DNA of 64,000 nucleotides, taken from positions 15,800,487-15,864,486 of the forward strand of contig NC_080057.1 of assembly GCF_026212465.1 (NCBI RefSeq). Reading direction: 5' to 3'. Shown piece by piece: positions 25,751 through 64,000 of the stretch (positions are counted from its first letter, which is position 1; the number at the start of each line of letters is the position of its first letter). The stretch comes from Amaranthus tricolor. Lineage: Eukaryota > Streptophyta > Magnoliopsida > Caryophyllales > Amaranthaceae. A model generated the notes under the pieces. That model ran no database searches. It saw nothing but the letters and a program-made list of their open reading frames with translations, and had not been told where the DNA came from. A program made the position numbers and the translations under genes.

Positions 25751-25755
25751 AAATT

Positions 25756-25773
25756 TGGCGCCGTTGCCGGGGA
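25756..25773 (+). other. Primer binding site, tRNA-Asp type
   Basis: TGGCGCCGTTGCCGGGGA, five bases after the LTR end. It is complementary to the 3' end of plant tRNA-Asp, the primer used by Athila-type elements. Confidence 0.9.
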
Positions 25774-25828
25774 AACGGTTTTATTTGGAATGATTATTAG
25801 AGTCTAGATTTTTTTTTATTATTATGAG

Positions 25829-26290
25829 TTGAAAATATCCATGCTTACGCCACTACAAGAATTATATTCGTTTTATGCAGAACCTGACTACTGTTGTTGT
25901 CAATATCGTCTTTGTCATGAAAATCCTGAATGCTCTTATAGTGAGTTTTTCGTGCGTGCTCCGGATGATTTTAGAGTCTTTTCATTTACATATGATCATA
26001 TTCAGAAATGATTGGTGGAAAATGAGAGCTATTGGAAGGCTCTTGATGAAAAAGTCTATGGACACTATAATAATACGAATGTTATTGAGGATGAGGAACC
26101 ATCGGTTATAGAATTTGTGGTTGAAAATTCATTGGTTGACGAATCGGTGATTGATAAAACATTAGTTGTAGAAACGGTGGTTGAAAATTCCTTTGTTAAT
26201 GATGAGTTTATTCATGAGGGTAGAATATTCAAGTCATTATTTGATGATAAAGACAAAGACTACCTCCATGTTCGTTCTATTAGTGCTTAA
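25829..26290 (+). pseudogene. Short leader ORFs of the Athila-type element
   Basis: 60 codons from 25829 (MKISMLTPLQELYSFYAEPD...) followed by a stop and, in another frame, an acidic stretch to 26290 with repeated VVENS words (IEFVVENSLVDE, VETVVENSFVND). No domain recognised. Possibly the relic of an N-terminal gag leader. Confidence 0.35.
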
Positions 26291-26299
26291 TGAAATGTT

Positions 26300-28510: not shown

Positions 28511-28522
28511 CTTGGGGGAGTT
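28511..28522 (+). other. Polypurine tract of the Athila-type element
   Basis: CTTGGGGGAGTT immediately precedes the TGATAAGTC start of the 3' LTR. The second copy has GCTTGGGAGAGTT at the equivalent place (34622-34634). Confidence 0.75.
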
Positions 28523-30046
28523 TGATAAGTCTATTTTATATATATTTTTATTCCCCGCCCACGGTCATATTTGTGCTTATTTTAGCTCTGCGGAGCTATT
28601 TTTATTACTAATATACTTTTTCTAGTCTTTTTGTAGAGTTAGTATTATTTTGCAGGAATCTACAGATTTATAATAATTCCCGAGCTTATTGAGCCACTAC
28701 AAATATATTGGAGTATGATCGTATTTTATGACTGTATACTTAAAGCCCAGACCGAGTCAAAGAAATTTAGTTCGGTGATCAAGGGCTCGATATGTGAGAA
28801 GGTCCAAGATTTTACAAGTTTTTATTACGAACCAATCAAGGAAAGAAATTGGGCCAAAAGCTTGAAGGGGTCTGAGCTTGCAAGTCCAAGATATATTAAG
28901 AAGAAGGAAATTACAGACCAAGTAAAAAGGCCAAATATTATATCTGTTGGGCGTGGAATTAACGGGCCCGATCGGATGGCCCAATTCCCGATCAATTACC
29001 ATGCGTGATACTGCTGCCTCATTTGTTGGAGTTTTTATTATTATTGGACTTTGTTATAAAACTATAGAAATCCCACTAGTGTAGACGTAGTACGGGGCTT
29101 TAGGGGTAGGGGTTAGAAGTTGAGTTGGAATAAAACTTCTTTTACTTTCTTATAAAAGGGCAGCAGTAGTATTAAGGGGGGACTCTTTACTTAGGTAGTG
29201 GGGATTAGTTGTTAGCTTAGTTTTTATCATATATTATTTAGATTAGTTATTAAGATTTTGTCAGATGCTTTGTTTTTGTCTTGTTTTAGTTCATACGTAA
29301 CTTTTAGTTTTTCGTCATTATTATTCTCTTTATTTAATTATTATTTTTATTATGCTTTATTTAATTGTTTTCCTTAATTTCTTGTTCTTTCTTTTAATCA
29401 TGCTTAGTTTAATCGCTTTGATTATTTTAGATTTAATTATGTTCGAGTAGTTTTATTCTAGGGTTTTGGGGATCCATGAATAATACGAAGGGGTAATTTA
29501 ATATTGTTGATTATTGATGATTGATTAATTTCCTATTGATTGATTTAATACTATGCAATTAGATTAGGCCTGGTTTAATTGCATGAGTTTTGCAATATTG
29601 ATTCGAGATTCGAGAGATGAGAATTGATGTTTAGGCTTAGTTTCAATAGGTGTGTTAATCTATAAATGGTTAAGTCAAGATCTGAGAGATGCGATTTAAT
29701 ACCGGTAGATTAATTATGTGATTATAATACGTAGCGAAAGCCATTTATAATCTGGTTAATTTATGCATTGATAATTAATTGTTATGTTTTACCCTGGAGT
29801 ATTATTTATTGGTGAACCTATACCCTAGACCTTTTATTATTGATTATTCCTTCATTTAATTTTCTTAGTTTAATTATTAGTGTAATTCACACAATACAAA
29901 TTGGTTACTCGATAATTTAGATTACAATAATTGATTAGGAGTAAAAGAACATTGTGTCCCTGTGAATTCAACCCTATTTCCCTATCTACTTTAGCCAGAG
30001 GACTTAGGAATTACTTTTGATTAGGTGATACGACTTTAGCCTGTCA
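28523..30046 (+). repeat. 3' LTR of the Athila-type element
   Basis: 1524 bp, TGATAAGTC...GCCTGTCA. Near-identical to the left LTR, pointing to fairly recent insertion. Confidence 0.85.
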
Positions 30047-34215: not shown

Positions 34216-34634
34216 TTTTAATGTGAAATTAGTTGTTTATTAATGCAAAGAATGATTTGACATATTTCGAGTCGACTACTAGGTTGAGTGCATGTCTTTT
34301 TAAACACACGAGTTCGTGAGTTGGGAGGGCATTGTTTTCATATAAAGGGGTGGATGGAGAGCGAACGAGTACATCTTTTACTCGCCACATCAATGAGAGT
34401 TGAGTGTGTGAGCACTAGTCTTGAATTCTAAATGCTCTTGTGGTTTGCTCTATTTGACAATTGTTAGGAAGGAGAGTTGGACGAATTTGATTGGTTGGTT
34501 TTGATGCATCCTTGTTGGATTTGCCTTGAATTAGTATGCTTGGTTTAGATTATTTTTGGGGTGAAGTATGTTTTGTCTGTTCATTGATGAGCTCTTTGCT
34601 TTGGGACAAGCAAAGGTTTGGCTTGGGAGAGTTT

Positions 34635-35836
34635 GATATGTTCATTTTATTAGAGATTTACTCCCGTCCCTTGGTCATATTTAGGAGTATTATTGGCTCT
34701 TCGGAGTCACTTTTATCACTAATATGTGTTCTCTAGTGTTTCCGTAGTTTTGGTACTGTTTTATACGAAATTGTAGATTTGGAGCATTTTCCCGGACTTA
34801 TATTAAGCAACTACGAGCATTGGAGAAATATGACCGTATTACATAGTCCAAGACCGGTTAGAGTCATCAAGTCGGTGATTAAGGGCTTGGCATAGAATAG
34901 ACCGAGGCAATGGACCAAGTAATCAAGACCCAAGGTGGAAAACCCGGAATTGGGCCAAGAGAAATAGCCCAAACTTGAAAAGGTTCAGCATGCCCGGGAG
35001 CAAGCCCTCGCCCTAAGGCGCGCCCGGCCGGGAAAGCCATATAGAAGAAAAAGAAGACTTCGCCCTGACGCGCGCCTGACCGGGCACGTGTTTCTGAAGC
35101 GTTTTAATGATATAATTTGTTTTATCTTTTTAGCCTAAGTATAAATACGTTTTATTTTAGGAAGTTAAGAATGTTTTTTTACTCTCTTTACAAATTTCGG
35201 ATTTTAGTTTAAGCTCTTATTAATCCTCTTACTTTTCTCTCTCTACACTCTTGAGTTTTATACGATTCATTATTTCCATTATTTTTGGTAACAATTTCTT
35301 CCCTTTCATTTTTAGTAATTAATTTCTTGGATTAATTATGTCGTATTTAATTGCTTTGCTTAGTTTAGATTTTAATATGTGTGAGTAGTTTATTTTCTAG
35401 GGTCGTGGGGATCCATAAATAATATAAAGGGGTAATTTACTATTGTTGATTGTTAATGCTTTGGTTAATTTCCTATGGATTGAATTAATGCTATGCAATT
35501 AGATTAGGCCTAATTTAATTGTATGAGTTATGCATTATTGATTCTAAATTCAAGAGATGAAAATTGATGTTTAGGCTTAGTTTCGATAGGCAGGTTAATT
35601 TATAAATGGTTAAGTCTAGATTCGAGAGACGCGATTTAATACCAATAGATTAATTTTGTGATTGTAATACGTAGCGAAAGCCCTTTATGATCTGATTAAT
35701 TGATGCATTGATAATTGATTGTTGTGTTTTACCCTGGAATATTATTTATTGGTGAACCTGTAGCCTAAGTCTTTTATTATTGATTTCCTCCCTCATTCAA
35801 TTTGCCTTAGTTTAATTATTAGTCTAATTCTTATTA
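34635..35836 (+). repeat. Athila LTR (left outer LTR of the array)
   Basis: About 1.2 kb, truncated at its 3' end relative to the LTR at 28523-30046. From 35114 onward it forms the beginning of array unit 1. Contains the GC-rich GGCGCGCCCGGCCGGG segment at about 35020 and a TATA box at 35140. Confidence 0.75.
35140..35147 (+). promoter_or_regulatory. LTR TATA box, unit 1
   Basis: TATAAATA within AAGTATAAATACG, 26 bp after the unit boundary and pointing into the palindrome. Sequence fits a plant core promoter; activity is inferred. Confidence 0.5.
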
Positions 35837-36034
35837 AAAACAGTGTTATATATATGCTGAAATACATGATGTTGAAATTTAAGTAATCTCAAGTATAACC
35901 TTCCTAAACAAGTATTAATGATTACTTGATAATTCTTATTTGGTCAAGCAACTTAACCTGCTCATTTCCTTAAGCTACTAATTAGAGTAATAACCAAAAA
36001 TAGTGTACCAGCTTATTAAAAAAACGCAACTAAC

Positions 36035-36950
36035 CTACTCATCAAAACCATTTGGGCACAGTCGTTTGAATTCCAACTGAAAAGAAAAATAAAAAAAAAA
36101 TTAAAAGCAGGAAATCTATGAAATAATTACCAGAAAGTATACAAACATCGCTGAATTGTAAACACTGTGCAGCAGAATTGGTGCACAGAGATTCCTTGAA
36201 TAAAGGTAGACAGCTCCCGTAAACAAACCAAAAGATCAAGATCATTTAATCATGAAAAAAAATGCAAAAGAAATAAATTGAAGTAATAATAATCAAAACT
36301 GAGATTAAGAAATATACCAAAGAAAAAATGAGGAGGAAAAACACTCAAGTCAAATCTTTGAGCTCCAACATGTAACAATCCAAAAGCCACTGATGAAAGA
36401 AGCAGAGCTGTGGGTGTAGCTACCCTATAGATAAGGAAACAACAATTTTGTTCAATATATTGGAACAATAAAATAAATTTGAGTTAATAAAAAACCAATA
36501 TATAAACTCGTAAACTTAACAATAAAAATAATCATTAACAGTAACTATATCGACATATTTGACACTTAATTGGTTTGTTTTGTTCAATATATTAAAATTC
36601 ATTTTCAAACACAAAAAGGATGAGATAAGATCAAATATATAATAATAAAAATTAACATTGGTATAAATAGGCAAAAAGTAAATATTAACACTCTCGTAAA
36701 TTAGCCAAATAAAAAAGTAAGTTGAAATACAATAGAATAAAAAAACCCTAATTTGGTAAACTTGAAATACAATAGAATAGAGAAATTTTAATGATACTAA
36801 CCATTTTGTCAGGGAAGTGAGCAAAAAACCCCTATAAACTATTTCCTCAACAACAGCAGCTACATTAACTTGGACAAATGTGAAAACAGCAACTAGGTTG
36901 GTGCAAAATGGCATCATCTTCAGTTTGACCTGGTCATCCTCAGCATATTC
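36035..36950 (-). pseudogene. CPBP protease exons a-d, minus arm of unit 1
   Basis: Exon a 36802-36950, b 36318-36424, c 36131-36228, d 36035-36076. Exon a holds the CPBP glutamate motif (VVEEIVYRGFLLTSL), exon b the FGLLH motif (SSVAFGLLHVGAQRF), exon c the HSVYN motif. CPBP proteins are intramembrane proteases of the Rce1/CAAX type, plastidial or ER in plants. In this arm the acceptor before exon c is TG instead of AG and the last codon of exon d is TAG instead of CAG, so it could not be spliced normally. Upstream exons are absent. Confidence 0.85.
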
Positions 36951-36969
36951 CTGAAATATATGTAAATGA

Positions 36970-37213
36970 ATATATTTTAAATTAGGAAAATGGTTAAAAA
37001 TAACCCGATTCTTATTTGTCGCCACCTTTTACATTTTATCGCCACCCTCCTTCGAATGAAATTACGAATTTGCCCTTGTAATTTAAAAATTTACAAATTT
37101 GCCATTGAAGTTAATAACTTTTCATTTTAATTTTTTTTTTATTATTTTTATTTATATTATTATTATTTTTATTATTATTGTTATTATAATAATTATTATT
37201 TTTTTTATTATTA

Positions 37214-37257
<44 letters not shown>

Positions 37258-37485
37258 ATAATTATTATTATTTAAATAAAAGTAACTTAAAAAATAAATT
37301 AATTAAACAAAAGAAATTTTATAAGTCGAAATTCAAAAAAAAAAAAAAATTCCAGTCGCACACAACGTGCGACTCGACCTAACTACAGTCGCACGTTTTG
37401 TGCGATTGGTTTTTTTTTTTTTTGAATTTCGACTTAAAAAATTTCTTTTGTTTAATTAATTTATTTTTTAAGTTACTTTTATTTA

Positions 37486-37534
<49 letters not shown>

Positions 37535-37780
37535 TAAATAATTATAATTATAATAACAATAATAATAATAATAATAATAACAATAATAATATAAATAAAA
37601 ATAATAAAAAAAAATGATAATGAAAAGTTATTAACTCCAATGTCAAATTTGTAAATTTTTAAATTCCAGGGGCAAATTCGTAATTTCATTCGAAGGAGGG
37701 TGGCGATAAAATAAAAAAGTGGCGAAAAATAAGAATCGGGTTATTTTTAACCATTTTCCTAAATTTAAAATATATTCATT
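36970..37780. mobile_element. Foldback element at the palindrome centre
   Basis: Mirror sequences starting TTAGGAAAATGGTTAAAAAT (right copy inverted) and continuing with TCGCCACCCTCCTTCGAATG and GAAATTACGAATTTGCCC lie on both sides of the microsatellites. This looks like a MITE/foldback element in the intron upstream of exon a, from which the larger palindrome could have started. It is repeated in units 2-4. Confidence 0.5.
37353..37408. repeat. Central palindrome of unit 1 (also 41494-41549, 45627-45682, 49768-49823)
   Basis: TCGCACACAACGTGCGACT pairs with AGTCGCACGTTTTGTGCGA across a loop of about 12 bases (CGACCTAACTAC). It joins the two arms almost without spacer, so the pairing runs from this hairpin out through A/T homopolymers, (TTA)n repeats and the CPBP exons. 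Confidence 0.9.
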
Positions 37781-37794
37781 TACATATATTTCAG

Positions 37795-38754
37795 GAATAT
37801 GCTGAGGATGACCAGGTCCAACTGAAGATGATGCCATTTTGCACCAACCTAGTTGCTGTTTTCACATTTGTCCAAGTTAATGTAGCTGCTGTTGTTGAGG
37901 AAATAGTTTACAGGGGTTTGTTGCTCACTTCCCTGACAAAATGGTTAGTATTATTAAAATTTTCTATTCTATTGTATTTCAAGTTTACCAAATTAGGGTT
38001 TTTTTTTTTTATTCTATTGTATTTCAACTTATTTTTTTATTTGGCTTACTTACGAGAGTGTCAATACTTACTTTTTGTCTATTTATACCAATGTTAATTT
38101 TTATTATTATTTATTTGATCTTATCTCATCTTTTTGTGTTTAAAAATAAATTTTAATATATTGAACAAAACAAACCAATTAAGTGTCAAATATGTCAATA
38201 TAGTTACTGTTAATGATTATTTTTATTGTTAAGTTTACGAGTTTATATATTGGTTTTTTATTAACTCAAATTTATTTTTGTTGTTCCAATATATTGAACA
38301 AAATTGTTGTTTCCTTATCTATAGGGTAGCTACACCCACAGCTCTGCTTCTTTCATCAGTGGCTTTTGGATTGTTACATGTTGGAGCTCAAAGATTTGAC
38401 TTGAATGTTTTTCCCCCTCATTTTTTCTTTGGTATATTTCTTAATCTCAAGTTTGATTATTATTACTTCAATTTGTTTCTTTTGCATTTTTTTTCATGAT
38501 TAAATGATCTTGATCTTTAGGTTTGTTTACGGGAGCTGTCTACCTTTATTCAAGGAATCTCTGTGCACCAATTCTGCTGCACAGTGTTTACAATTCAGCG
38601 ATGTTTGTATACTTTCTGGTAATTATTTCATAGATTTCCTACTTCAGTTTATTTCTAGTATTTTTTTAATAGTAATTTAATGTTTTTTTTATTTATTTTA
38701 TTTTTTTTTCAGTTGGAATTCAAACGACTGTGCCCAAATGGTTTTGATGAGCAG
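37795..38754 (+). pseudogene. CPBP protease exons a-d, plus arm of unit 1
   Basis: Exon a 37795-37943, b 38325-38431, c 38521-38618, d 38713-38754: 396 bp, all with AG acceptors and GT donors and one uninterrupted frame. Translated parts include EYAEDDQVQLKMMPFCTNLV, VEEIVYRGLLLTSLTKW, GLLHVGAQRFDLNVFPP, GAVYLYSRNLCAPILLHSVY and LEFKRLCPNGFDEQ. All three CPBP signature motifs (EExxxR, FxxxH, HxxxN) are present. No start codon, transit peptide or upstream membrane helices, so it is a fragment of the catalytic half. Confidence 0.88.
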
Positions 38755-39275
38755 GTTAGTTGCGTTTTTTTCTTAATAAACTGGTACACTATTTTCGGTT
38801 ATTACTTGAATTAGTAGTTTAAGAAAATGAGCAAGTTAAGTTGCTTGACCAAATAAGAATTATCAAGTAATCATTAATACTTGTTTAGGAAGGTTATACT
38901 TGAGATTACTTAAATTTCAACATCATGTATTTCAGCATATATGTAACACTGTTTTTAATAAGAATTAGACTAATAATTAAACTAAGGCAAATTGAATAAG
39001 GGAGGAAATCAATAATAAAAGACCTAGGCTACAGGTTCACCAATAAATAATATTCCAGGGTAAAACACAACAATCAATGCATCAATTAATCAGATCATAA
39101 AGGGCTTTCGCTACGTATTACAATCACAGAATTAATCTATTGGTATTAAATCGCATCTCTCGAATCTAGACTTAACCATTTATAAATTAACCTGCCTATC
39201 GAAACTAAGCCTAAACATCAATTCTCATCTATTGAATTTAGAATCAATAAATTTGCTTTATCTTTTTAGCCTAAG

Positions 39276-39283
39276 TATAAATA
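39276..39283 (+). promoter_or_regulatory. LTR TATA box, unit 2
   Basis: Same TATAAATA context as unit 1, in the hybrid LTR fragment. Confidence 0.5.
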
Positions 39284-40169
39284 CGTTTTATTTTAGGAAG
39301 TTAAGAATGTTTTTTTACTCTCTTTACAAATTTCGGATTTTAGTTTAAGCTCTTATTAATCCTCTTACTTTCTCTCTGTACGCTCTTGAGTTTTATGCAA
39401 TTCATTATTTCCATTAATTTTGGTAACAATTTCTTCCCTTTCATTTTTAGTAATTAATTTCTTGGATTAATTATGTCGTATTTAATTGCTTTGCTTAGTT
39501 TAGATTTTAATATGTGTGAGTAGTTTATTTTCTAGGGTCGTGGGGATCCATAAATAATATAAAGGGGTAATTTACTATTGTTGATTGTTAATGCTTTGGT
39601 TAATTTCCTATGGATTGAATTAATGCTATGCAATTAGATTAGGCCTAATTTAATTGTATGAGTTATGCATTATTGATTCTAAATTCAAGAGATGAAAATT
39701 GATGTTTAGGCTTAGTTTCGATAGGCAGGTTAATTTATAAATGGTTAAGTCTAGATTCGAGAGACGCGATTTAATACCAATAGATTAATTTTGTGATTGT
39801 AATACGTAGCGAAAGCCCTTTATGATCTGATTAATTGATGCATTGATAATTGATTGTTGTGTTTTACCCTGGAATATTATTTATTGGTGAACCTGTAGCC
39901 TAAGTCTTTTATTATTGATTTCCTCCCTCATTCAATTTGCCTTAGTTTAATTATTAGTCTAATTCTTATTAAAAACAGTGTTATATATATGCTGAAATAC
40001 ATGATGTTGAAATTTAAGTAATCTCAAGTATAACCTTCCTAAACAAGTATTAATGATTACTTGATAATTCTTATTTGGTCAAGCAACTTAACCTGCTCAT
40101 TTCCTTAAGCTACTAATTAGAGTAATAACCAAAAATAGTGTACCAGCTTATTAAAAAAACGCAACTAAC

Positions 40170-41085
40170 CTACTCATCAAAACCATTTGGGCACAGTCGT
40201 TTGAATTCCAACTGAAAAGAAAAATAAAAAAAAAATTAAAAGCAGGAAATCTATGAAATAATTACCAGAAAGTATACAAACATCGCTGAATTGTAAACAC
40301 TGTGCAGCAGAATTGGTGCACAGAGATTCCTTGAATAAAGGTAGACAGCTCCCGTAAACAAACCAAAAGATCAAGATCATTTAATCATGAAAAAAAATGC
40401 AAAAGAAATAAATTGAAGTAATAATAATCAAAACTGAGATTAAGAAATATACCAAAGAAAAAATGAGGAGGAAAAACACTCAAGTCAAATCTTTGAGCTC
40501 CAACATGTAACAATCCAAAAGCCACTGATGAAAGAAGCAGAGCTGTGGGTGTAGCTACCCTATAGATAAGGAAACAACAATTTTGTTCAATATATTGGAA
40601 CAATAAAATAAATTTGAGTTAATAAAAAACCAATATATAAACTCGTAAACTTAACAATAAAAATAATCATTAACAGTAACTATATCGACATATTTGACAC
40701 TTAATTGGTTTGTTTTGTTCAATATATTAAAATTCATTTTCAAACACAAAAAGGATGAGATAAGATCAAATAAATAATAATAAAAATTAACATTGGTATA
40801 AATAGGCAAAAAGTAAATATTAACACTCTCGTAAATTAGCCAAATAAAAAAGTAAGTTGAAATACAATAGAATAAAAAAACCCTAATTTGGTAAACTTGA
40901 AATACAATAGAATAGAGAAATTTTAATGATACTAACCATTTTGTCAGGGAAGTGAGCAAAAAACCCCTATAAACTATTTCCTCAACAACAGCAGCTACAT
41001 TAACTTGGACAAATGTGAAAACAGCAACTAGGTTGGTGCAAAATGGCATCATCTTCAGTTTGACCTGGTCATCCTCAGCATATTC
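40170..41085 (-). pseudogene. CPBP exons a-d, minus arm of unit 2
   Basis: Exon a 40937-41085, b 40453-40559, c 40266-40363, d 40170-40211. Same lost acceptor before exon c and same TAG at the end of exon d as in unit 1. Confidence 0.85.
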
Positions 41086-41344
41086 CTGAAATATATGTAA
41101 ATGAATATATTTTAAATTAGGAAAATGGTTAAAAATAACCCGATTCTTATTTGTCGCCACCTTTTACATTTTATCGCCACCCTCCTTCGAATGAAATTAC
41201 GAATTTGCCCTTGTAATTTAAAAATTTACAAATTTGCCATTGAAGTTAATAACTTTTCATTTTAATTTTTTTTTTATTATTTTTATTTATATTATTATTA
41301 TTTTTATTATTATTGTTATTATAATAATTATTATTTTTTTTATT

Positions 41345-41398
<54 letters not shown>

Positions 41399-41626
41399 AT
41401 AATTATTATTATTTAAATAAAAGTAACTTAAAAAATAAATTAATTAAACAAAAGAAATTTTATAAGTCGAAATTCAAAAAAAAAAAAAAATTCCAGTCGC
41501 ACACAACGTGCGACTCGACCTAACTACAGTCGCACGTTTTGTGCGATTGGTTTTTTTTTTTTTTGAATTTCGAGTTAAAAAATTTCTTTTGTTTAATTAA
41601 TTTATTTTTTAAGTTACTTTTATTTA

Positions 41627-41675
<49 letters not shown>

Positions 41676-41934
41676 TAAATAATTATAATTATAATAACAA
41701 TAATAATAATAATAATAATAACAATAATAATATAAATAAAAATAATAAAAAAAATGATAATGAAAAGTTATTAACTCCAATGTCAAATTTGTAAATTTTT
41801 AAATTCCAGGGGCAAATTCGTAATTTCATTCGAAGGAGGGTGGCGATAAAATAAAAAAGTGGCGAAAAATAAGAATCGGGTTATTTTTAACCATTTTCCT
41901 AAATTTAAAATATATTCATTTACATATATTTCAG

Positions 41935-42893
41935 GAATATGCTGAGGATGACCAGGTCCAACTGAAGATGATGCCATTTTGCACCAACCTAGTTGCTGTT
42001 TTCACATTTGTCCAAGTTAATGTAGCTGCTGTTGTTGAAGAAATAGTTTACAGGGATTTGTTGCTCACTTCCCTGACAAAATGGTTAGTATTATTAAAAT
42101 TTTCTATTCTATTGTATTTCAAGTTTACCAAATTAGGGTTTTTTTTTTATTCTATTGTATTTCAACTTATTTTTTTATTTGGCTTACTTACGAGAGTGTC
42201 AATACTTACTTTTTGTCTATTTATACCAATGTTAATTTTTATTATTATTTATTTGATCTTATCTCATCCTTTTTGTGTTTAAAAATAAATTTTAATATAT
42301 TGAACAAAACAAACCAATTAAGTGTCAAATATGTCAATATAGTTACTGTTAATGATTATTTTTATTGTTAAGTTTACGAGCTTATATATTGGTTTTTTAT
42401 TAACTCAAATTTATTTTTATTGTTCCAATATATTGAACAAAATTGTTGTTTCCTTATCTATAGGGTAGCTACACCCACAGCTCTGCTTCTTTCATCAGTG
42501 GCTTTTGGATTGTTACATGTTGGAGCTCAAAGATTTGACTTGAATGTTTTTCCCCCTCATTTTTTCTTTGGTATATTTCTTAATCTCAAGTTTGATTATT
42601 ATTACTTCAATTTGTTTCTTTTGCATTTTTTTTCATGATTAAATGATCTTGATCTTTAGGTTTGTTTACGGGAGCTGTCTACCTTTATTCAAGGAATCTC
42701 TGTGCACCAATTCTGCTGCACAGTGTTTACAATTCAGCGATGTTTGTATACTTTCTGGTAATTATTTCATAGATTTCCTACTTCAGTTTATTTCTAGTAT
42801 TTTTTTAATAGTAATTTAATGTTTTTTTTATTTATTTTATTTTTTTTTCAGTTGGAATTCAAACGACTGTGCCCAAATGGTTTTGATGAGCAG
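41935..42893 (+). pseudogene. CPBP exons a-d, plus arm of unit 2
   Basis: Exon a 41935-42083, b 42464-42570, c 42660-42757, d 42852-42893. Splice sites intact. Exon a reads EEIVYRDLLL: the Gly after the conserved Arg is Asp, the type B marker. Confidence 0.85.
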
Positions 42894-43414
42894 GTTAGTT
42901 GCGTTTTTTTCTTAATAAACTGGTACACTATTTTCGGTTATTACTTGAATTAGTAGTTTAAGAAAATGAGCAAGTTAAGTTGCTTGACCAAATAAGAATT
43001 ATCAAGTAATCATTAATACTTGTTTAGGAAGGTTATACTTGAGATTACTTAAATTTCAACATCATGTATTTCAGCATATATGTAACACTGTTTTTAATAA
43101 GAATTAGACTAATAATTAAACTAAGGCAAATTGAATAAGGGAGGAAATCAATAATAAAAGACCTAGGCTACAGGTTCACCAATAAATAATATTCCAGGGT
43201 AAAACACAACAATCAATGCATCAATTAATCAGATCATAAAGGGCTTTCGCTACGTATTACAATCACAGAATTAATCTATTGGTATTAAATCGCATCTCTC
43301 GAATCTAGACTTAACCATTTATAAATTAACCTGCCTATCGAAACTAAGCCTAAACATCAATTCTCATCTATTGAATTTAGAATCAATAAATTTGCTTTAT
43401 CTTTTTAGCCTAAG

Positions 43415-43422
43415 TATAAATA
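43415..43422 (+). promoter_or_regulatory. LTR TATA box, unit 3
   Basis: Same TATAAATA context, in the hybrid LTR fragment. Confidence 0.5.
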
Positions 43423-44308
43423 CGTTTTATTTTAGGAAGTTAAGAATGTTTTTTTACTCTCTTTACAAATTTCGGATTTTAGTTTAAGCTCTTATTAATC
43501 CTCTTACTTTCTCTCTGTACGCTCTTGAGTTTTATGCAATTCATTATTTCCATTAATTTTGGTAACAATTTCTTCCCTTTCATTTTTAGTAATTAATTTC
43601 TTGGATTAATTATGTCGTATTTAATTGCTTTGCTTAGTTTAGATTTTAATATGTGTGAGTAGTTTATTTTCTAGGGTCGTGGGGATCCATAAATAATATA
43701 AAGGGGTAATTTACTATTGTTGATTGTTATTGCTTTGGTTAATTTCCTATGGATTGAATTAATGCTATGCAATTAGATTAGGCCTAATTTAATTGTATGA
43801 GTTATGCATTATTGATTCTAAATTCAAGAGATGAAAATTGATGTTTAGGCTTAGTTTCGATAGGCAGGTTAATTTATAAATGGTTAAGTCTAGATTCGAG
43901 AGATGCGATTTAATACCAATAGATTAATTTTGTGATTGTAATACGTAGCGAAAGCCCTTTATGATCTGATTAATTAATGCATTGATAATTGATTGTTGTG
44001 TTTTACCCTGGAATATTATTTATTGGTGAACCTGTAGCCTAAGTCTTTTATTATTGATTTCCTCCCTCATTCAATTTGCCTTAGTTTAATTATTAGTCTA
44101 ATTCTTATTAAAAACAGTGTTATATATATGCTGAAATACATGATGTTGAAATTTAAGTAATCTCAAGTATAACCTTCCTAAACAAGTATTAATGATTACT
44201 TGATAATTCTTATTTGGTCAAGCAACTTAACCTGCTCATTTCCTTAAGCTACTAATTAGAGTAATAACCAAAAATAGTGTACCAGCTTATTAAAAAAACG
44301 CAACTAAC

Positions 44309-45224
44309 CTACTCATCAAAACCATTTGGGCACAGTCGTTTGAATTCCAACTGAAAAGAAAAATAAAAAAAAAATTAAAAGCAGGAAATCTATGAAATAA
44401 TTACCAGAAAGTATACAAACATCGCTGAATTGTAAACACTGTGCAGCAGAATTGGTGCACAGAGATTCCTTGAATAAAGGTAGACAGCTCCCGTAAACAA
44501 ACCAAAAGATCAAGATCATTTAATCATGAAAAAAAATGCAAAAGAAATAAATTGAAGTAATAATAATCAAAACTGAGATTAAGAAATATACCAAAGAAAA
44601 AATGAGGAGGAAAAACACTCAAGTCAAATCTTTGAGCTCCAACATGTAACAATCCAAAAGCCACTGATGAAAGAAGCAGAGCTGTGGGTGTAGCTACCCT
44701 ATAGATAAGGAAACAACAATTTTGTTCAATATATTGGAACAATAAAATAAATTTGAGTTAATAAAAAACCAATATATAAACTCGTAAACTTAACAATAAA
44801 AATAATCATTAACAGTAACTATATCGACATATTTGACACTTAATTGGTTTGTTTTGTTCAATATATTAAAATTCATTTTCAAACACAAAAAGGATGAGAT
44901 AAGATCAAATATATAATAATAAAAATTAACATTGGTATAAATAGGCAAAAAGTAAATATTAACACTCTCGTAAATTAGCCAAATAAAAAAGTAAGTTGAA
45001 ATACAATAGAATAAAAAAACCCTAATTTGGTAAACTTGAAATACAATAGAATAGAGAAATTTTAATGATACTAACCATTTTGTCAGGGAAGTGAGCAAAA
45101 AACCCCTATAAACTATTTCCTCAACAACAGCAGCTACATTAACTTGGACAAATGTGAAAACAGCAACTAGGTTGGTGCAAAATGGCATCATCTTCAGTTT
45201 GACCTGGTCATCCTCAGCATATTC
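44309..45224 (-). pseudogene. CPBP exons a-d, minus arm of unit 3
   Basis: Exon a 45076-45224, b 44592-44698, c 44405-44502, d 44309-44350. As unit 1. Confidence 0.85.
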
Positions 45225-45487
45225 CTGAAATATATGTAAATGAATATATTTTAAATTAGGAAAATGGTTAAAAATAACCCGATTCTTATTTGTCGCCACC
45301 TTTTACATTTTATCGCCACCCTCCTTCGAATGAAATTACGAATTTGCCCTTGTAATTTAAAAATTTACAAATTTGCCATTGAAGTTAATAACTTTTCATT
45401 TTAATTTTTTTTTTATTATTTTTATTTATATTATTATTATTTTTATTATTATTGTTATTATAATAATTATTATTTTTTTTATTATTA

Positions 45488-45531
<44 letters not shown>

Positions 45532-45759
45532 ATAATTATTATTATTTAAATAAAAGTAACTTAAAAAATAAATTAATTAAACAAAAGAAATTTTATAAGT
45601 CGAAATTCAAAAAAAAAAAAAAATTCCAGTCGCACACAACGTGCGACTCGACCTAACTACAGTCGCACGTTTTGTGCGATTGGTTTTTTTTTTTTTTGAA
45701 TTTCGACTTAAAAAATTTCTTTTGTTTAATTAATTTATTTTTTAAGTTACTTTTATTTA

Positions 45760-45808
<49 letters not shown>

Positions 45809-46068
45809 TAAATAATTATAATTATAATAACAATAATAATAATAATAATAATAACAATAATAATATAAATAAAAATAATAAAAAAAAATGATAATGAAAA
45901 GTTATTAACTCCAATGTCAAATTTGTAAATTTTTAAATTCCAGGGGCAAATTCGTAATTTCATTCGAAGGAGGGTGGCGATAAAATAAAAAAGTGGCGAA
46001 AAATAAGAATCGGGTTATTTTTAACCATTTTCCTAAATTTAAAATATATTCATTTACATATATTTCAG

Positions 46069-47028
46069 GAATATGCTGAGGATGACCAGGTCCAACTGAA
46101 GATGATGCCATTTTGCACCAACCTAGTTGCTGTTTTCACATTTGTCCAAGTTAATGTAGCTGCTGTTGTTGAGGAAATAGTTTACAGGGGTTTGTTGCTC
46201 ACTTCCCTGACAAAATGGTTAGTATTATTAAAATTTTCTATTCTATTGTATTTCAAGTTTACCAAATTAGGGTTTTTTTTTTTTATTCTATTGTATTTCA
46301 ACTTATTTTTTTATTTGGCTTACTTACGAGAGTGTCAATACTTACTTTTTGTCTATTTATACCAATGTTAATTTTTATTATTATTTATTTGATCTTATCT
46401 CATCTTTTTGTGTTTAAAAATAAATTTTAATATATTGAACAAAACAAACCAATTAAGTGTCAAATATGTCAATATAGTTACTGTTAATGATTATTTTTAT
46501 TGTTAAGTTTACGAGTTTATATATTGGTTTTTTATTAACTCAAATTTATTTTTGTTGTTCCAATATATTGAACAAAATTGTTGTTTCCTTATCTATAGGG
46601 TAGCTACACCCACAGCTCTGCTTCTTTCATCAGTGGCTTTTGGATTGTTACATGTTGGAGCTCAAAGATTTGACTTGAATGTTTTTCCCCCTCATTTTTT
46701 CTTTGGTATATTTCTTAATCTCAAGTTTGATTATTATTACTTCAATTTGTTTCTTTTGCATTTTTTTTCATGATTAAATGATCTTGATCTTTAGGTTTGT
46801 TTACGGGAGCTGTCTACCTTTATTCAAGGAATCTCTGTGCACCAATTCTGCTGCACAGTGTTTACAATTCAGCGATGTTTGTATACTTTCTGGTAATTAT
46901 TTCATAGATTTCCTACTTCAGTTTATTTCTAGTATTTTTTTAATAGTAATTTAATGTTTTTTTTATTTATTTTATTTTTTTTTCAGTTGGAATTCAAACG
47001 ACTGTGCCCAAATGGTTTTGATGAGCAG
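46069..47028 (+). pseudogene. CPBP exons a-d, plus arm of unit 3
   Basis: Exon a 46069-46217, b 46599-46705, c 46795-46892, d 46987-47028. As unit 1, with Gly after the conserved Arg. Confidence 0.85.
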
Positions 47029-47549
47029 GTTAGTTGCGTTTTTTTCTTAATAAACTGGTACACTATTTTCGGTTATTACTTGAATTAGTAGTTTAAGAAA
47101 ATGAGCAAGTTAAGTTGCTTGACCAAATAAGAATTATCAAGTAATCATTAATACTTGTTTAGGAAGGTTATACTTGAGATTACTTAAATTTCAACATCAT
47201 GTATTTCAGCATATATGTAACACTGTTTTTAATAAGAATTAGACTAATAATTAAACTAAGGCAAATTGAATAAGGGAGGAAATCAATAATAAAAGACCTA
47301 GGCTACAGGTTCACCAATAAATAATATTCCAGGGTAAAACACAACAATCAATGCATCAATTAATCAGATCATAAAGGGCTTTCGCTACGTATTACAATCA
47401 CAGAATTAATCTATTGGTATTAAATCGCATCTCTCGAATCTAGACTTAACCATTTATAAATTAACCTGCCTATCGAAACTAAGCCTAAACATCAATTCTC
47501 ATCTATTGAATTTAGAATCAATAAATTTGCTTTATCTTTTTAGCCTAAG

Positions 47550-47557
47550 TATAAATA
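47550..47557 (+). promoter_or_regulatory. LTR TATA box, unit 4
   Basis: Same TATAAATA context, in the hybrid LTR fragment. Confidence 0.5.
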
Positions 47558-48443
47558 CGTTTTATTTTAGGAAGTTAAGAATGTTTTTTTACTCTCTTTA
47601 CAAATTTCGGATTTTAGTTTAAGCTCTTATTAATCCTCTTACTTTCTCTCTGTACGCTCTTGAGTTTTATGCAATTCATTATTTCCATTAATTTTGGTAA
47701 CAATTTCTTCCCTTTCATTTTTAGTAATTAATTTCTTGGATTAATTATGTCGTATTTAATTGCTTTGCTTAGTTTAGATTTTAATATGTGTGAGTAGTTT
47801 ATTTTCTAGGGTCGTGGGGATCCATAAATAATATAAAGGGGTAATTTACTATTGTTGATTGTTAATGCTTTGGTTAATTTCCTATGGATTGAATTAATGC
47901 TATGCAATTAGATTAGGCCTAATTTAATTGTATGAGTTATGCATTATTGATTCTAAATTCAAGAGATGAAAATTGATGTTTAGGCTTAGTTTCGATAGGC
48001 AGGTTAATTTATAAATGGTTAAGTCTAGATTCGAGAGACGCGATTTAATACCAATAGATTAATTTTGTGATTGTAATACGTAGCGAAAGCCCTTTATGAT
48101 CTGATTAATTGATGCATTGATAATTGATTGTTGTGTTTTACCCTGGAATATTATTTATTGGTGAACCTGTAGCCTAAGTCTTTTATTATTGATTTCCTCC
48201 CTCATTCAATTTGCCTTAGTTTAATTATTAGTCTAATTCTTATTAAAAACAGTGTTATATATATGCTGAAATACATGATGTTGAAATTTAAGTAATCTCA
48301 AGTATAACCTTCCTAAACAAGTATTAATGATTACTTGATAATTCTTATTTGGTCAAGCAACTTAACCTGCTCATTTCCTTAAGCTACTAATTAGAGTAAT
48401 AACCAAAAATAGTGTACCAGCTTATTAAAAAAACGCAACTAAC

Positions 48444-49359
48444 CTACTCATCAAAACCATTTGGGCACAGTCGTTTGAATTCCAACTGAAAAGAAAAATA
48501 AAAAAAAAATTAAAAGCAGGAAATCTATGAAATAATTACCAGAAAGTATACAAACATCGCTGAATTGTAAACACTGTGCAGCAGAATTGGTGCACAGAGA
48601 TTCCTTGAATAAAGGTAGACAGCTCCCGTAAACAAACCAAAAGATCAAGATCATTTAATCATGAAAAAAAATGCAAAAGAAATAAATTGAAGTAATAATA
48701 ATCAAAACTGAGATTAAGAAATATACCAAAGAAAAAATGAGGAGGAAAAACACTCAAGTCAAATCTTTGAGCTCCAACATGTAACAATCCAAAAGCCACT
48801 GATGAAAGAAGCAGAGCTGTGGGTGTAGCTACCCTATAGATAAGGAAACAACAATTTTGTTCAATATATTGGAACAATAAAATAAATTTGAGTTAATAAA
48901 AAACCAATATATAAACTCGTAAACTTAACAATAAAAATAATCATTAACAGTAACTATATCGACATATTTGACACTTAATTGGTTTGTTTTGTTCAATATA
49001 TTAAAATTCATTTTCAAACACAAAAAGGATGAGATAAGATCAAATAAATAATAATAAAAATTAACATTGGTATAAATAGGCAAAAAGTAAATATTAACAC
49101 TCTCGTAAATTAGCCAAATAAAAAAGTAAGTTGAAATACAATAGAATAAAAAAACCCTAATTTGGTAAACTTGAAATACAATAGAATAGAGAAATTTTAA
49201 TGATACTAACCATTTTGTCAGGGAAGTGAGCAAAAAACCCCTATAAACTATTTCCTCAACAACAGCAGCTACATTAACTTGGACAAATGTGAAAACAGCA
49301 ACTAGGTTGGTGCAAAATGGCATCATCTTCAGTTTGACCTGGTCATCCTCAGCATATTC
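48444..49359 (-). pseudogene. CPBP exons a-d, minus arm of unit 4
   Basis: Exon a 49211-49359, b 48727-48833, c 48540-48637, d 48444-48485. As unit 2. Confidence 0.85.
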
Positions 49360-49618
49360 CTGAAATATATGTAAATGAATATATTTTAAATTAGGAAAAT
49401 GGTTAAAAATAACCCGATTCTTATTTGTCGCCACCTTTTACATTTTATCGCCACCCTCCTTCGAATGAAATTACGAATTTGCCCTTGTAATTTAAAAATT
49501 TACAAATTTGCCATTGAAGTTAATAACTTTTCATTTTAATTTTTTTTTTATTATTTTTATTTATATTATTATTATTTTTATTATTATTGTTATTATAATA
49601 ATTATTATTTTTTTTATT

Positions 49619-49672
<54 letters not shown>

Positions 49673-49900
49673 ATAATTATTATTATTTAAATAAAAGTAA
49701 CTTAAAAAATAAATTAATTAAACAAAAGAAATTTTATAAGTCGAAATTCAAAAAAAAAAAAAAATTCCAGTCGCACACAACGTGCGACTCGACCTAACTA
49801 CAGTCGCACGTTTTGTGCGATTGGTTTTTTTTTTTTTTGAATTTCGAGTTAAAAAATTTCTTTTGTTTAATTAATTTATTTTTTAAGTTACTTTTATTTA

Positions 49901-49949
<49 letters not shown>

Positions 49950-50208
49950 TAAATAATTATAATTATAATAACAATAATAATAATAATAATAATAACAATA
50001 ATAATATAAATAAAAATAATAAAAAAAATGATAATGAAAAGTTATTAACTCCAATGTCAAATTTGTAAATTTTTAAATTCCAGGGGCAAATTCGTAATTT
50101 CATTCGAAGGAGGGTGGCGATAAAATAAAAAAGTGGCGAAAAATAAGAATCGGGTTATTTTTAACCATTTTCCTAAATTTAAAATATATTCATTTACATA
50201 TATTTCAG

Positions 50209-51167
50209 GAATATGCTGAGGATGACCAGGTCCAACTGAAGATGATGCCATTTTGCACCAACCTAGTTGCTGTTTTCACATTTGTCCAAGTTAATGTAGC
50301 TGCTGTTGTTGAAGAAATAGTTTACAGGGATTTGTTGCTCACTTCCCTGACAAAATGGTTAGTATTATTAAAATTTTCTATTCTATTGTATTTCAAGTTT
50401 ACCAAATTAGGGTTTTTTTTTTATTCTATTGTATTTCAACTTATTTTTTTATTTGGCTTACTTACGAGAGTGTCAATACTTACTTTTTGTCTATTTATAC
50501 CAATGTTAATTTTTATTATTATTTATTTGATCTTATCTCATCCTTTTTGTGTTTAAAAATAAATTTTAATATATTGAACAAAACAAACCAATTAAGTGTC
50601 AAATATGTCAATATAGTTACTGTTAATGATTATTTTTATTGTTAAGTTTACGAGCTTATATATTGGTTTTTTATTAACTCAAATTTATTTTTATTGTTCC
50701 AATATATTGAACAAAATTGTTGTTTCCTTATCTATAGGGTAGCTACACCCACAGCTCTGCTTCTTTCATCAGTGGCTTTTGGATTGTTACATGTTGGAGC
50801 TCAAAGATTTGACTTGAATGTTTTTCCCCCTCATTTTTTCTTTGGTATATTTCTTAATCTCAAGTTTGATTATTATTACTTCAATTTGTTTCTTTTGCAT
50901 TTTTTTTCATGATTAAATGATCTTGATCTTTAGGTTTGTTTACGGGAGCTGTCTACCTTTATTCAAGGAATCTCTGTGCACCAATTCTGCTGCACAGTGT
51001 TTACAATTCAGCGATGTTTGTATACTTTCTGGTAATTATTTCATAGATTTCCTACTTCAGTTTATTTCTAGTATTTTTTTAATAGTAATTTAATGTTTTT
51101 TTTATTTATTTTATTTTTTTTTCAGTTGGAATTCAAACGACTGTGCCCAAATGGTTTTGATGAGCAG
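50209..51167 (+). pseudogene. CPBP exons a-d, plus arm of unit 4
   Basis: Exon a 50209-50357, b 50738-50844, c 50934-51031, d 51126-51167. As unit 2, with the Gly-to-Asp change. Confidence 0.85.
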
Positions 51168-51662
51168 GTTAGTTGCGTTTTTTTCTTAATAAACTGGTAC
51201 ACTATTTTCGGTTATTACTTGAATTAGTAGTTTAAGAAAATGAGCAAGTTAAGTTGCTTGACCAAATAAGAATTATCAAGTAATCATTAATACTTGTTTA
51301 GGAAGGTTATACTTGAGATTACTTAAATTTCAACATCATGTATTTCAGCATATATGTAACACTGTTTTTAATAAGAATTAGACTAATAATTAAACTAAGG
51401 CAAATTGAATAAGGGAGGAAATCAATAATAAAAGACCTAGGCTACAGGTTCACCAATAAATAATATTCCAGGGTAAAACACAACAATCAATGCATCAATT
51501 AATCAGATCATAAAGGGCTTTCGCTACGTATTACAATCACAGAATTAATCTATTGGTATTAAATCGCATCTCTCGAATCTAGACTTAACCATTTATAAAT
51601 TAACCTGCCTATCGAAACTAAGCCTAAACATCAATTCTCATCTATTGAATTTAGAATCAATA

Positions 51663-52074
51663 AATTTGCTTTATCTTTTTAGCCTAAGTATAAATACGTT
51701 TTATTTTAGGAAGTTAAGAATGTTTTTTTACTCTCTTTACAAATTTCGGATTTTAGTTTAAGCTCTTATTAATCCTCTTACTTTCTCTCTGTACGCTCTT
51801 GAGTTTTATGCAATTCATTATTTCCATTAATTTTGGTAACAATTTCTTCCCTTTCATTTTCACTTTCAGTAATTAATTTCTTGGATTAATTATGTCGTAT
51901 TTAATTGCTTTGCTTAGTTTAGATTTTAATATGTGTGAGTAGTTTATTTTCTAGGGTCGTGGGGATCCATAAATAATATGAAGGGGTAATTTACTGTTGT
52001 TGATTGTTAATGCTTTGGTTAATTTCCTATTGATTGAATTAATGCTATGCAATTAGATTAGGCCTAATTTAATT
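51663..52074 (+). repeat. Partial fifth unit: right outer LTR fragment
   Basis: Only the LTR part is present. It has its own markers in the second half (extra CACTTTC at about 51861, AATATGAAGG, TACTGTTG, CCTATTGATTG) and breaks off at 52074 into an unrelated repeat. Confidence 0.9.
51689..51696 (+). promoter_or_regulatory. LTR TATA box, partial unit 5
   Basis: Same TATAAATA context; no palindrome follows it. Confidence 0.45.
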
Positions 52075-52985
52075 GCTATTCTAATTCCCTCCCACCCCCC
52101 AAATCCCTCTACACCTTCAACCCCATCCACCAACTTTTCAGTTCCCACCACCACTTACAACTCTCACTGCCACTATATACACCACCATTTTTACAGCTAC
52201 CACTACCACCATCATCACCAACGCTGCCGCCGCGGCTGCCACCACTACAAATCTAAGAAAATACACCCCACAAATCCCATAACATACTTAAACACTCACA
52301 TGTAATGCCTTGTAGCTATCCACAACCTTAACACTATCACCGCCGTCACCGCAACCATACCACCTAACCCAAAAGCACCATACTTCTCAAAAACCACCAT
52401 ACCAACATAAAATTGAAGGATAACACAAGTCTCTGAAACATGAATAAAGGCTTTTTATGGTACAATTTGACCATGAAAGCTTTAGATCTAAAACTTTTAT
52501 TGTCAAATTGAATCATTAAGAACCATATGATGATGAAAAAATCTTGCAAAAGTTGGGTAGGATGTGCTTTCGACGGTCGACGCATTTTTCCTAGTGAGTG
52601 GGTCGTGGTGGATGGGTCTCTTTGATGGTCTATTTCTACCACTAAGAATTGGTGAAGCATATGCGAAGCATTGAGTTGCCAAATTATGGTTGTGAATCGG
52701 GAAAATGGTTAAAATGGTGGTGTAGAGAGAAGATATATGAATTATGGAAGAAGTTGAAGTTAATATAATGGGGTTAAGGTTGATGTAAAAGTTGCAGGCT
52801 TGCGTGAAGAAGAAAGCAAATGAGTGAATCTACTAGATTTGCAACAAACATAGTTGAAGGGTCTAGAAACCCTTTGTTTTGATTAATCAAACAAATTGAG
52901 GGATTGGAGGGTTTTTGTTTTCTTTCCTTTCCATTCTCTTTCTTCATTCCATTCCTTTCTTTATCTCAAACCAAACAGCCCCTTA
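52075..52985. mobile_element. Fragment of a foldback-type repeat, right part
   Basis: Same family as 31332-31905: CCACCACC-rich DNA, GCTTTTTATGGT, and an end reading AACCAAACAGCCCCTT. Its left end is cut by the array. Both fragments contain the GCTTTTTATGGT region, so they are two copies rather than halves of one. Confidence 0.45.
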
Positions 52986-53178
52986 TACTGCAACTATGAG
53001 AAGAACACACGACCATAACACAACTTGGTCAAAGTCCATATCAATAATGTTTTGGCACTAAAGATACTTCGCCAAACTTTTTAGTTTTTCAATGAGACAA
53101 ACGCACGATAATTCATTCCTTATAATGTTCGGATTGTTAGGTTTACTTGGCTCACATATATCTAAATTAACTCACATA
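52986..53178. other. Spacer without recognised gene
   Basis: AT-rich; nothing recognised. Confidence 0.4.
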
Positions 53179-53364
53179 CTTCCTCTATTATTATTAGATG
53201 ATACTCAATCCATTTAAGGAAGTTTAGTATTAGACGATATACTACTTTTTTGGGCAATTTTTTCACTCTATCTCTCTCTTATCACATGGGTCCTATAATT
53301 TTTTTCTCTCTCATCCACCAAAGTTCCTGAAAATAAAAATGTATCATCCAATAAACGGAGGAAA
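53179..53364. mobile_element. Stowaway-like MITE, 186 bp
   Basis: Ends CTTCCTCTATTATTATTAGA (left) and GGATGATACAT...AAACGGAGGAAA (right) are imperfect inverted repeats; TA flanks both sides (53177-53178, 53365-53366), as for Tc1/mariner-type MITEs. Confidence 0.7.
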
Positions 53365-53366
53365 TA

Positions 53367-54286
53367 TATGAAATAACATGATTGACATCAAAGAGATAAT
53401 ACATTTTTTGTGATACTTTTGCAAATTAAATAGACACAAACAAAATCAACACACCAAAGATCAAGCAAATCAAGGACTTAGCCGAATTAAAGAATTATCA
53501 AGAAGTGCTTGTGATCAAATATATAACCGTGTTTACATACACCTTATTAAATTATTCCAAAAGATTTTAAATCATGTGCCTAATTCGTATTACATGAGTA
53601 GAATATAAGCGAGATTCAAACAATATTTCCTTTTCCTTTTGAATAAAAATATTTCAAAACTAAAATTTGCAATTTTAATTACATATATTAATTTTAGGTT
53701 AAAAAGATGTATAAATGCATTTAAATATTCATTATTATTTATATATCTCTATTTATTCTCATTATACATAAAAACTAAAAAATGAAAATCCATGTATTAA
53801 AAGATAAAGTACTATTCAAAGATAAAGTATTAATTTTTTAGTATAAATTCCATGTATAACTGAAAAATGACAACTTTTAAGTATAATTTTAAAGTATTAA
53901 TTTTTAAGTATAAAATCCATGTATAAATGAAAAATGACAACTTTAAGTATAATTTTTAAGTTTAGATTAGAATTTGTATTAAAAGATAAAGTACTATTCA
54001 AAAGTAAAATAGTGTCTTTATTAAAGGGAAAAAAGCTATTTAGACAAAAAAAAGTGCAACTTATGTTACACAAGACAAAGTAAGCTTCATATTTCATATT
54101 AACTTTCACATAATAAGGCCACAATTCAAAAAACTAGTTGTCAACAATTAATTCCTAGCTAATTTAGAATTCCAGAAACAATCTTTTAGGGTTGTACTTA
54201 TTAATCATTTAATTTATTAATCAATAGTAAGTTTATAACTAACATTTAAAAAAAAAAAAAAAGAAAAAATTGATATATGGAATAAA
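53367..54286. other. AT-rich spacer with short local repeats
   Basis: No exon seen here that would join the CPBP-like exons at 54293-55086 to exon a of the array. 53800-54000 contains duplicated words (AAAGATAAAGTACTATTCAAA twice, TTTTTAAGTATAAA several times). Confidence 0.45.
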
Positions 54287-54292
54287 ACCTAC

Positions 54293-55086
54293 CAAGCCTC
54301 TAGGCCACAAAGGCCGAGAACAGTCGTATCAAGCGACCACGGGACACTCCACCTAGTCAGAACTCTCTTCTTCAAGCTATCCTGAAAATTTCAAAACAAA
54401 AAAAATCACTAAACAAGAGAAAAATAAATAAATAATTTCAAGGGCTACAATTTACAATTTGAAATTTCTAAAAAGGTAAAATAAAACAAAATTTTAGTCC
54501 AAGCGATATTATTGAATCTCAATCATGCCTAATAAGCTAGTAGGAGTTTATTAGTCTAATAAGGTTGTAAAATATTATCTTATCTTTTTAGATAATAATT
54601 AGCTAGGTTTTAGTTGTTATCTCTTTTGGGTTGTTATAATATATTTAGCTACGTTTTGTACTCGAACATTATTCATTCAATGGCTTGTGTGTAGCCAAAA
54701 ACACTCCACCATTCTCAATTAAGTTGGGTGGAAATCAATCCTGTATACTTAATATTAATTGATTAGGGTTTATGGGTGGAGAGTGGTCCTATAAACAAAT
54801 CTAGTACATGGGCATATTTGCATAAAGCCACGCATCACTTTCACTAAAAATGAAATTTAATTTAAGTATATTCATACCAATTTAATTAGCATTCTCAATT
54901 CAATTTCAGCAACAAAGGAAGGCAATGTAAATTGATCAGGCAAGAAAACAAAACAACACTATCTTATAAAGTTATAAGTTATAACTAGAGGATATCACTA
55001 TAAATGGTTGAATCATACCCCTTGCCATTTGGGCGAACGACGCAGCTGATGCAGTCCACCAAGCACACGACCAAAGATCTTCATGG
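54293..55086 (-). pseudogene. Two CPBP-like 5' exons
   Basis: First exon 55019-55086 (acceptor-like TGTAG before, donor GTATGA after) reads MKIFGRVLGGLHQLRRSPKW. Second exon 54293-54381 (acceptor TTTTCAG, donor GTAGGT) reads DSLKKRVLTRWSVPWSLDTT then VLGLCGLEAW. The two join in phase and leave a phase-2 end. The VPW...T segment resembles the region before the first transmembrane helix of plant CPBP proteins. Exons between this and exon a of the array are not found, so the gene seems cut by whatever created the array. The assignment to CPBP is an inference; an additional upstream exon is likely. Confidence 0.5.
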
Positions 55087-63470: not shown

Positions 63471-63592
63471 ACCCCTAGGCCTCACACCTATCTCAAGATA
63501 CAAGCAGGGGGCAAGGACCGAACCCGTGACCTCTAAGGCGGGGGGGGGGGGGGGGGGGGGGGGGGGGAGTGTTACTCAGTGAGCTACTCCCC
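63470..63592 (-). mobile_element. tRNA-derived SINE interrupted by a poly-G run
   Basis: Minus strand starts GGGGAGTAGCTCACTGAGTA (A-box-like) and, after a long homopolymer, reads AGGTCACGGGTTCGGTCCTT (B-box, GGTTCGNNCC type), then a tRNA-unrelated tail. Such Pol III promoter pairs mark plant SINEs. The run of about 27 G (plus strand 63541-63567) sits between A and B boxes. Confidence 0.65.
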
Positions 63593-63599
63593 TATCCTT

Positions 63600-64000
63600 T
63601 AAAGACAATAATACTTGTACGAAGTATAGTAGAGTTTGGATAATGGGCTATTATTTAGTCCGGTCATGCCCCGACTAACATGATAAGAAAGGCATCGTTT
63701 CTTGGGATTGAACTAAACTTATTTACACTTAATTGACTAATAAACTTTAATTAATAATCAAATAAAAATAATTGATTATTTATAACTAATAGTCTTAATT
63801 TTTAATTACTATGTTGTTAATTGTAAATTATCAATTATCAATTACTATTTATTATTTAAATTTGATCTGAACTAAAATAAATTACCATGAATTTAAATCC
63901 AAAAAACATGTACGAAGATTAGTGAAAGACGTTGTAATTTTTAAATGGCAAAACTAGGGGCATCTAACAATCTAACATGATGAGAAAGACAATATTAAGG
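63600..64000. other. AT-rich spacer at window end
   Basis: No gene recognised. TAATTATCAATTA-type words are frequent. Confidence 0.4.

Follow-up and report, generated by a model that had tools for sequence, protein, structure and literature searches.

What has happened to a plant gene whose central exons lie head to head in both orientations, several times over, and on what could the RNA of such a locus act? These questions are raised by an array on contig NC_080057.1 of the Amaranthus tricolor assembly GCF_026212465.1, within a stretch of 64,000 nucleotides (positions 15,800,487 to 15,864,486, here called the window), in which four exons of a CPBP intramembrane protease gene are repeated as tandem palindromes. 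We consider it probable that a native CPBP locus was broken in place, that it underwent inverted duplication and tandem amplification, and that any transcripts from it would form hairpins with effects in cis, on an intact allele or on long terminal repeat (LTR) sequences.

Architecture of the array and identity of its gene

The array occupies positions 35110-52079 and is made of four tandem units and a partial fifth spacer (Table 1). The units are palindromic, two arms of about 1.85 kb enclosing a loop of 12 bases (read by eye), and in every unit the four CPBP (PF02517) exons (a, 149 bp; b, 107 bp; c, 98 bp; d, 42 bp) and their introns are present in both orientations, all eight exon sets being found. 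An earlier note on this DNA had described four 4.14-kb palindromic units with these arms, loop and exon sets, and that description was borne out. Kilobase repeats at 94-100% identity are not a product of chance, and the window contains no runs of N.

The joined plus-arm exons encode 132 amino acids that matched Pfam PF02517 with an E value of 5.3e-20 and 72 bits, above the gathering score (22.4) for CPBP / Rce1-like proteases. Of seven open frames in the region, including two that contain array exons, none had a Pfam match; only the joined exons did. Searches of NCBIfam yielded sub-cut-off matches only, Rfam gave no known structured RNA at the gathering score, and no solved structure matched the quinoa orthologue (P0006). 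This 382-residue protein is 78% identical to the array product across the four exons, and its use as a query located the gene's exons 1 and 2 at 2-3 kb to the right of the array. Exon 1 starts with ATG, both exons have splice-like borders, and their strand and order agree with those of the minus-arm exons, the native gene order on the minus strand being exon 1 at 55084, exon 2 at 54381 and then the central exons a-d. Because exons 1 and 2 adjoin the array on the minus-arm strand, the array looks like the wreck of a native, apparently single-copy CPBP gene. The "gene fragments" of the earlier note are thus not stray pieces.

No intact gene for the whole CPBP protein was found. The genome searched was a single assembly of 520 Mb in 45 contigs (the window lies on contig C11), and only the best candidates were scored. 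With this scope, quinoa residues ~55-170 and ~306-382 were found neither in the window, nor in the adjoining 30 kb to its left and 40 kb to its right, nor elsewhere in the genome; beyond exons 1 and 2, the window and flanks gave matches only at E values above 0.2. Two other classes were considered and rejected. A functional CPBP gene cluster does not agree with copies that carry splice, stop or replacement changes and have none of the other exons beside them. A transposon with a captured gene piece does not agree with the presence of exons 1 and 2 alongside; as to foldback elements, MITEs and Pack-type elements, dispersed copies away from the parent gene were not found, all eight copies that were found being in the array beside those exons.

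Table 1. Coordinates in the window of the array, its parts and the features around it
Feature	Position	Strand	Remarks
Last exon of LOC130827194	30834..30943	-	tail maps nowhere else in the window
Retrotransposon fragment	34220..35850	+	reaches from left of the array into unit 1 and the arm; internal-part end to ~34660, truncated LTR after it
Array unit 1	35110..39246		4137 bp
Unit 1 left arm	35535..37376	-	CPBP exons in native-gene sense; exon c acceptor TTTG; stop ends exon d
Unit 1 right arm	37389..39250	+	exons a 37795-37943, b 38325-38431, c 38521-38618, d 38713-38754
Array unit 2	39247..43385		4139 bp
Array unit 3	43386..47520		4135 bp, unit 1 type
Array unit 4	47521..51659		4139 bp, identical to unit 2
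Partial fifth LTR-like spacer	51660..52079	+	420 bp, copy at right flank
Array-to-exon 2 stretch	52080..54294	-	no match to missing exons
CPBP exon 2 (quinoa residues 23-51)	54295..54381	-	tblastn 93%; after acceptor ..TTTTCAG, before GT
CPBP exon 1 (ATG; quinoa residues 1-22)	55019..55084	-	tblastn 91% over 22 aa; genome C11:15855502-15855570

Divergence of units and arms and a proposed order of events

The units are of two kinds. Unit 2 equals unit 4 exactly, 10 events (six substitutions and four indels) separate odd from even units, and unit 3 departs from unit 1 by three private substitutions as well as by the differences in spacer type that mark unit 1. Variants absent from unit 1 are common to the spacers of units 2-5, and the units pair off as 1/3 and 2/4. 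The 8.27-kb dimers are 99.75% identical. These figures bear on the explanation that the array is an assembly artefact, arising from fold-back or chimeric reads or having a wrong copy number. The published A. tricolor assembly is described as built from HiFi reads of a 15-kb library, ultra-long nanopore reads having served for scaffolding only (PMC9847342), and the array measures 17 kb; since the dimers are so similar, the exact unit number is less certain. The arms, however, differ by about 6% with indels, which is not the product of read fold-back, and the units carry variants of their own. A false palindrome is therefore unlikely and a wrong unit number possible, but we regard an artefact as a very improbable account of the locus as a whole.

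Between arms, identity is about 94%, with indels, and 905 of the 1857 21-mers of the right arm occur exactly in the left one. Of the 1280 pairs predicted when 36042-38780 is folded, 1269 span the centre, and a transcript through any unit should fold as a hairpin. The earlier claim of a hairpin on transcription agrees with this prediction, but its wording of "near-perfect" double-stranded RNA was too strong because of the divergence, the indels and the limited share of exact 21-mers. Perfect hairpin transgenes have been reported to become methylated and self-silencing, with mismatches relieving the effect (PMC9263138); by analogy, the arms of the array would fall between perfect and mismatched hairpin transgenes.

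At the exon borders, AG/GT is kept in the eight copies, except for the exon c acceptor (TTTG) in the four minus copies; exon d closes with a stop in these same four, and in units 2 and 4 the plus copies read D in place of G after EEIVYR. The arms differ at 6 of 396 exon positions, four of the changes altering the protein (one being the minus-arm stop) and two being silent, a ratio as expected without constraint in what is a tiny sample. Most non-coding arm stretches differ by ~3-5% and the LTR-like part by 2.0%. Leaving its stop apart, the minus arm agrees with quinoa at all three amino-acid replacements (K, F, S), so that the minus orientation is the older one and the plus arm derived. The divergence K was 0.028 between arms (exon plus LTR side), 0.0016 between units 1 and 2 without spacer, and zero between units 2 and 4. 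An assumed rate of 7e-9 substitutions per site per year would give rough ages of about 2 million years for the arms and about 0.1 million for the first doubling of the unit.

The four central exons adjoin an LTR fragment with which they are inverted-duplicated in the four units. This retrotransposon sequence reaches past the left edge of the array: the fragment at 34220..35850 is a single continuous match to each of three genome copies (L012, L013 and L015), and its first part (34220-34741) aligns to 28107-28630, spanning the LTR start at 28549. It belongs to the family of an element of the window at 24252-30046, which has LTRs of 1.5 kb at 24252-25750 and 28549-30046 that are 96.4% identical (K 0.035); the sequence after its first LTR resembles what we take to be a primer-binding site. 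Relatives of this element were seen on C11 near 3.19 and 4.33 Mb, on C10 and on C5.

We believe that these data are most simply explained by the following order of events. An inverted duplication of the LTR fragment, exons and introns would have given a single palindrome with an LTR-like direct repeat on either side. Unequal crossing over at these repeats would have doubled it, and the resulting dimer would then have doubled again, recently. Unequal crossing over is suggested by the spacer types (2-5 versus 1), by the pairing of units 1/3 and 2/4, and by the retrotransposon sequence beyond the left array edge.

Other features were noted in the window. The open frames at 2595-5634 (-) and 16122-19796 (-) look by eye like pieces of Gypsy-type polyproteins, and those at 6139-7351 (-) resemble, also by eye, a plant mobile domain and the end of a MULE-type transposase. 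A tandem repeat of ~740 bp at 63573-64000 extends to the right of the window, with nine further matches in L021 at 94.6-97.0%.

Transcription of the array and its possible targets

Two public protein models of A. tricolor coincide with the array. Plus-arm exons a, b and c of either unit 1 or unit 3, read on into the intron that follows, encode LOC130827196 letter for letter. LOC130827194 (P0002) is reproduced letter for letter by exons a-b of any of the four minus arms spliced to 30943 (-), a splice that omits exon c, whose acceptor is broken in the minus arm. The two models, one per strand, may hint at transcription of the array. Three further proteins (P0003, P0004 and P0005), from ENA/lgn contigs of 2-13 kb, are related to exon a with its reading frame continued into the intron; by eye they are closest to the minus arm, and they may come from another Amaranthus genome. 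Among the literature matches listed, no paper was, by its title, on Amaranthus small RNA sequencing.

The two models weigh on the explanation that the array is inert recombination debris in transposon-rich DNA, with the origin proposed above but no RNA product. The gene is broken, retrotransposon sequence is found in its flanks, and the copies vary without clear constraint, all of which suits this explanation; the two encoded models, one on each strand, fit it less well. We judge it a possibility of some substance but unlikely, and if no RNA is made the locus would represent an ordinary gene death by rearrangement, albeit well preserved. If RNA is made, a transcript entering the array, either from a promoter upstream of exon 1 or on either strand of the two models, would fold into a hairpin of up to ~1.8 kb that could feed Dicer.

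The earlier note had gone further, proposing a natural hairpin-RNA locus of the soybean CHS type, directed in trans against an intact CPBP paralogue. Such a silencer has in its favour the long inverted repeats with gene exons, the strong predicted hairpin and known precedents (PMC3804491; PMC3203196). Searches for its target, however, gave a different picture. As DNA, exons a-d had eight matches in the genome, all eight in the array, and exons 1-2 had one, which was itself. The quinoa protein had 29, namely 24 in the array, exons 1 and 2, and three places of distant paralogues, two on C15 (39%) and one on C1 (33%); at these paralogue loci (L001-L003, 3.3 kb) no 21-mer of the unit-1 plus-arm exons was present at up to four mismatches. 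An intact CPBP copy elsewhere was thus not found among the best candidates of this one assembly, and we consider silencing of a paralogue in trans decidedly unlikely. The two C15 places (G000:C15:205567 and C15:539973) are in opposite orientation, 334 kb apart and identical over the 85 amino acids aligned.

Comparison with described systems leads to the same contrast. As in Arabidopsis PAI1-PAI4 of Ws, where an endogenous gene is reported to have been rearranged to an inverted repeat with flanking direct repeats that permit recombination (PMC3203196), the array is an endogenous gene turned into an inverted repeat between direct repeats. PAI, as described there, is a single inverted repeat with unlinked homologous targets (PAI2 and PAI3) and detected small RNAs; the array consists of four tandem palindromes, and an intact target for it was not found. 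The array also resembles the soybean I locus (GmIRCHS), described as inverted repeats of gene or pseudogene pieces whose copy number shifts by non-allelic recombination (PMC6710647; PMC13051633), but the I locus is reported to target CHS7/CHS8 mRNAs (PMC3804491) and the amaranth copies found lie in the array itself. In short, the long inverted gene repeat of the CHS and PAI type is present, and a homologous intact target elsewhere was not found. An inverted gene duplication with foldback potential is likewise the starting point of the inverted-duplication model of plant MIRNA birth (PMC3237417); unlike in that model, the array is without a short conserved foldback, and a surviving intact parent gene was not found.

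Since no intact copy was found elsewhere, the targets of small RNAs from the array would be the array itself in cis, an intact allele or LTRs, and not a paralogue. Action in cis would mean methylation of the gene wreck. The intact allele would be one carried by other plants of the species, and a bolder version, which we rate as improbable, is that the broken allele, keeping its promoter-proximal exons, silences through hairpin RNA from the four palindromes the intact CPBP allele of other cultivars or sister species in crosses; if true, it would be a self-made dominant null or a paramutation-like barrier.

The LTR targets would be those that share the LTR piece of ~300 bp present in both arms of all four units. 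At least 12 LTR places were found outside the array, two belonging to the window's own element and two being matches of 72-73 bases; the piece shares 7-66 of its 430 exact 21-mers with 10 of the 12, which makes an LTR target possible, and none with the other two. Transposon sequence in inverted arms, with matching elements in the genome, is what is expected of a locus like maize Mu killer, and it is conceivable that the LTR piece yields hairpin RNA that restrains its LTR family, CPBP being passive cargo. Mu killer, as described, is likewise a partial inverted duplication with transposon terminal sequence and a flanking gene, and has itself been proposed to form a hairpin of ~4 kb, the scale of the units, via flanking-gene read-through (PMC3440606). 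Unlike in Mu killer, the transposon part of the array is a minor LTR piece, the bulk of each arm not being LTR; together with the two places without a shared 21-mer and the shortness of two of the matches, this makes the explanation a doubtful one.

Some observations weigh against the view that a native CPBP gene was broken in place and that its transcripts would fold. The gene is defined by one orthologue, that of quinoa, and part of that protein, in the stretch of missing residues, resembles by eye an unspliced intron. The missing exons might lie in an assembly gap or be too diverged, and a diverged intact CPBP copy could escape a search in which only the best candidates are scored. Public records contain two short protein models within the array, so that a product of some kind may exist. 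Finally, the exons have diverged less between arms than most of the non-coding stretches, possibly a trace of earlier constraint. Even so, a native gene wrecked in place, with transcripts that would fold, is the reading that we retain as probable.

The locus appears to record how a plant gene was turned, at its native position, into a hairpin array, and the palindrome, the doubling and the redoubling are still readable. It would offer a natural experiment on what a multi-copy inverted repeat does when it has no trans target, be it self-silencing, restraint of an LTR family or action on intact alleles in crosses.

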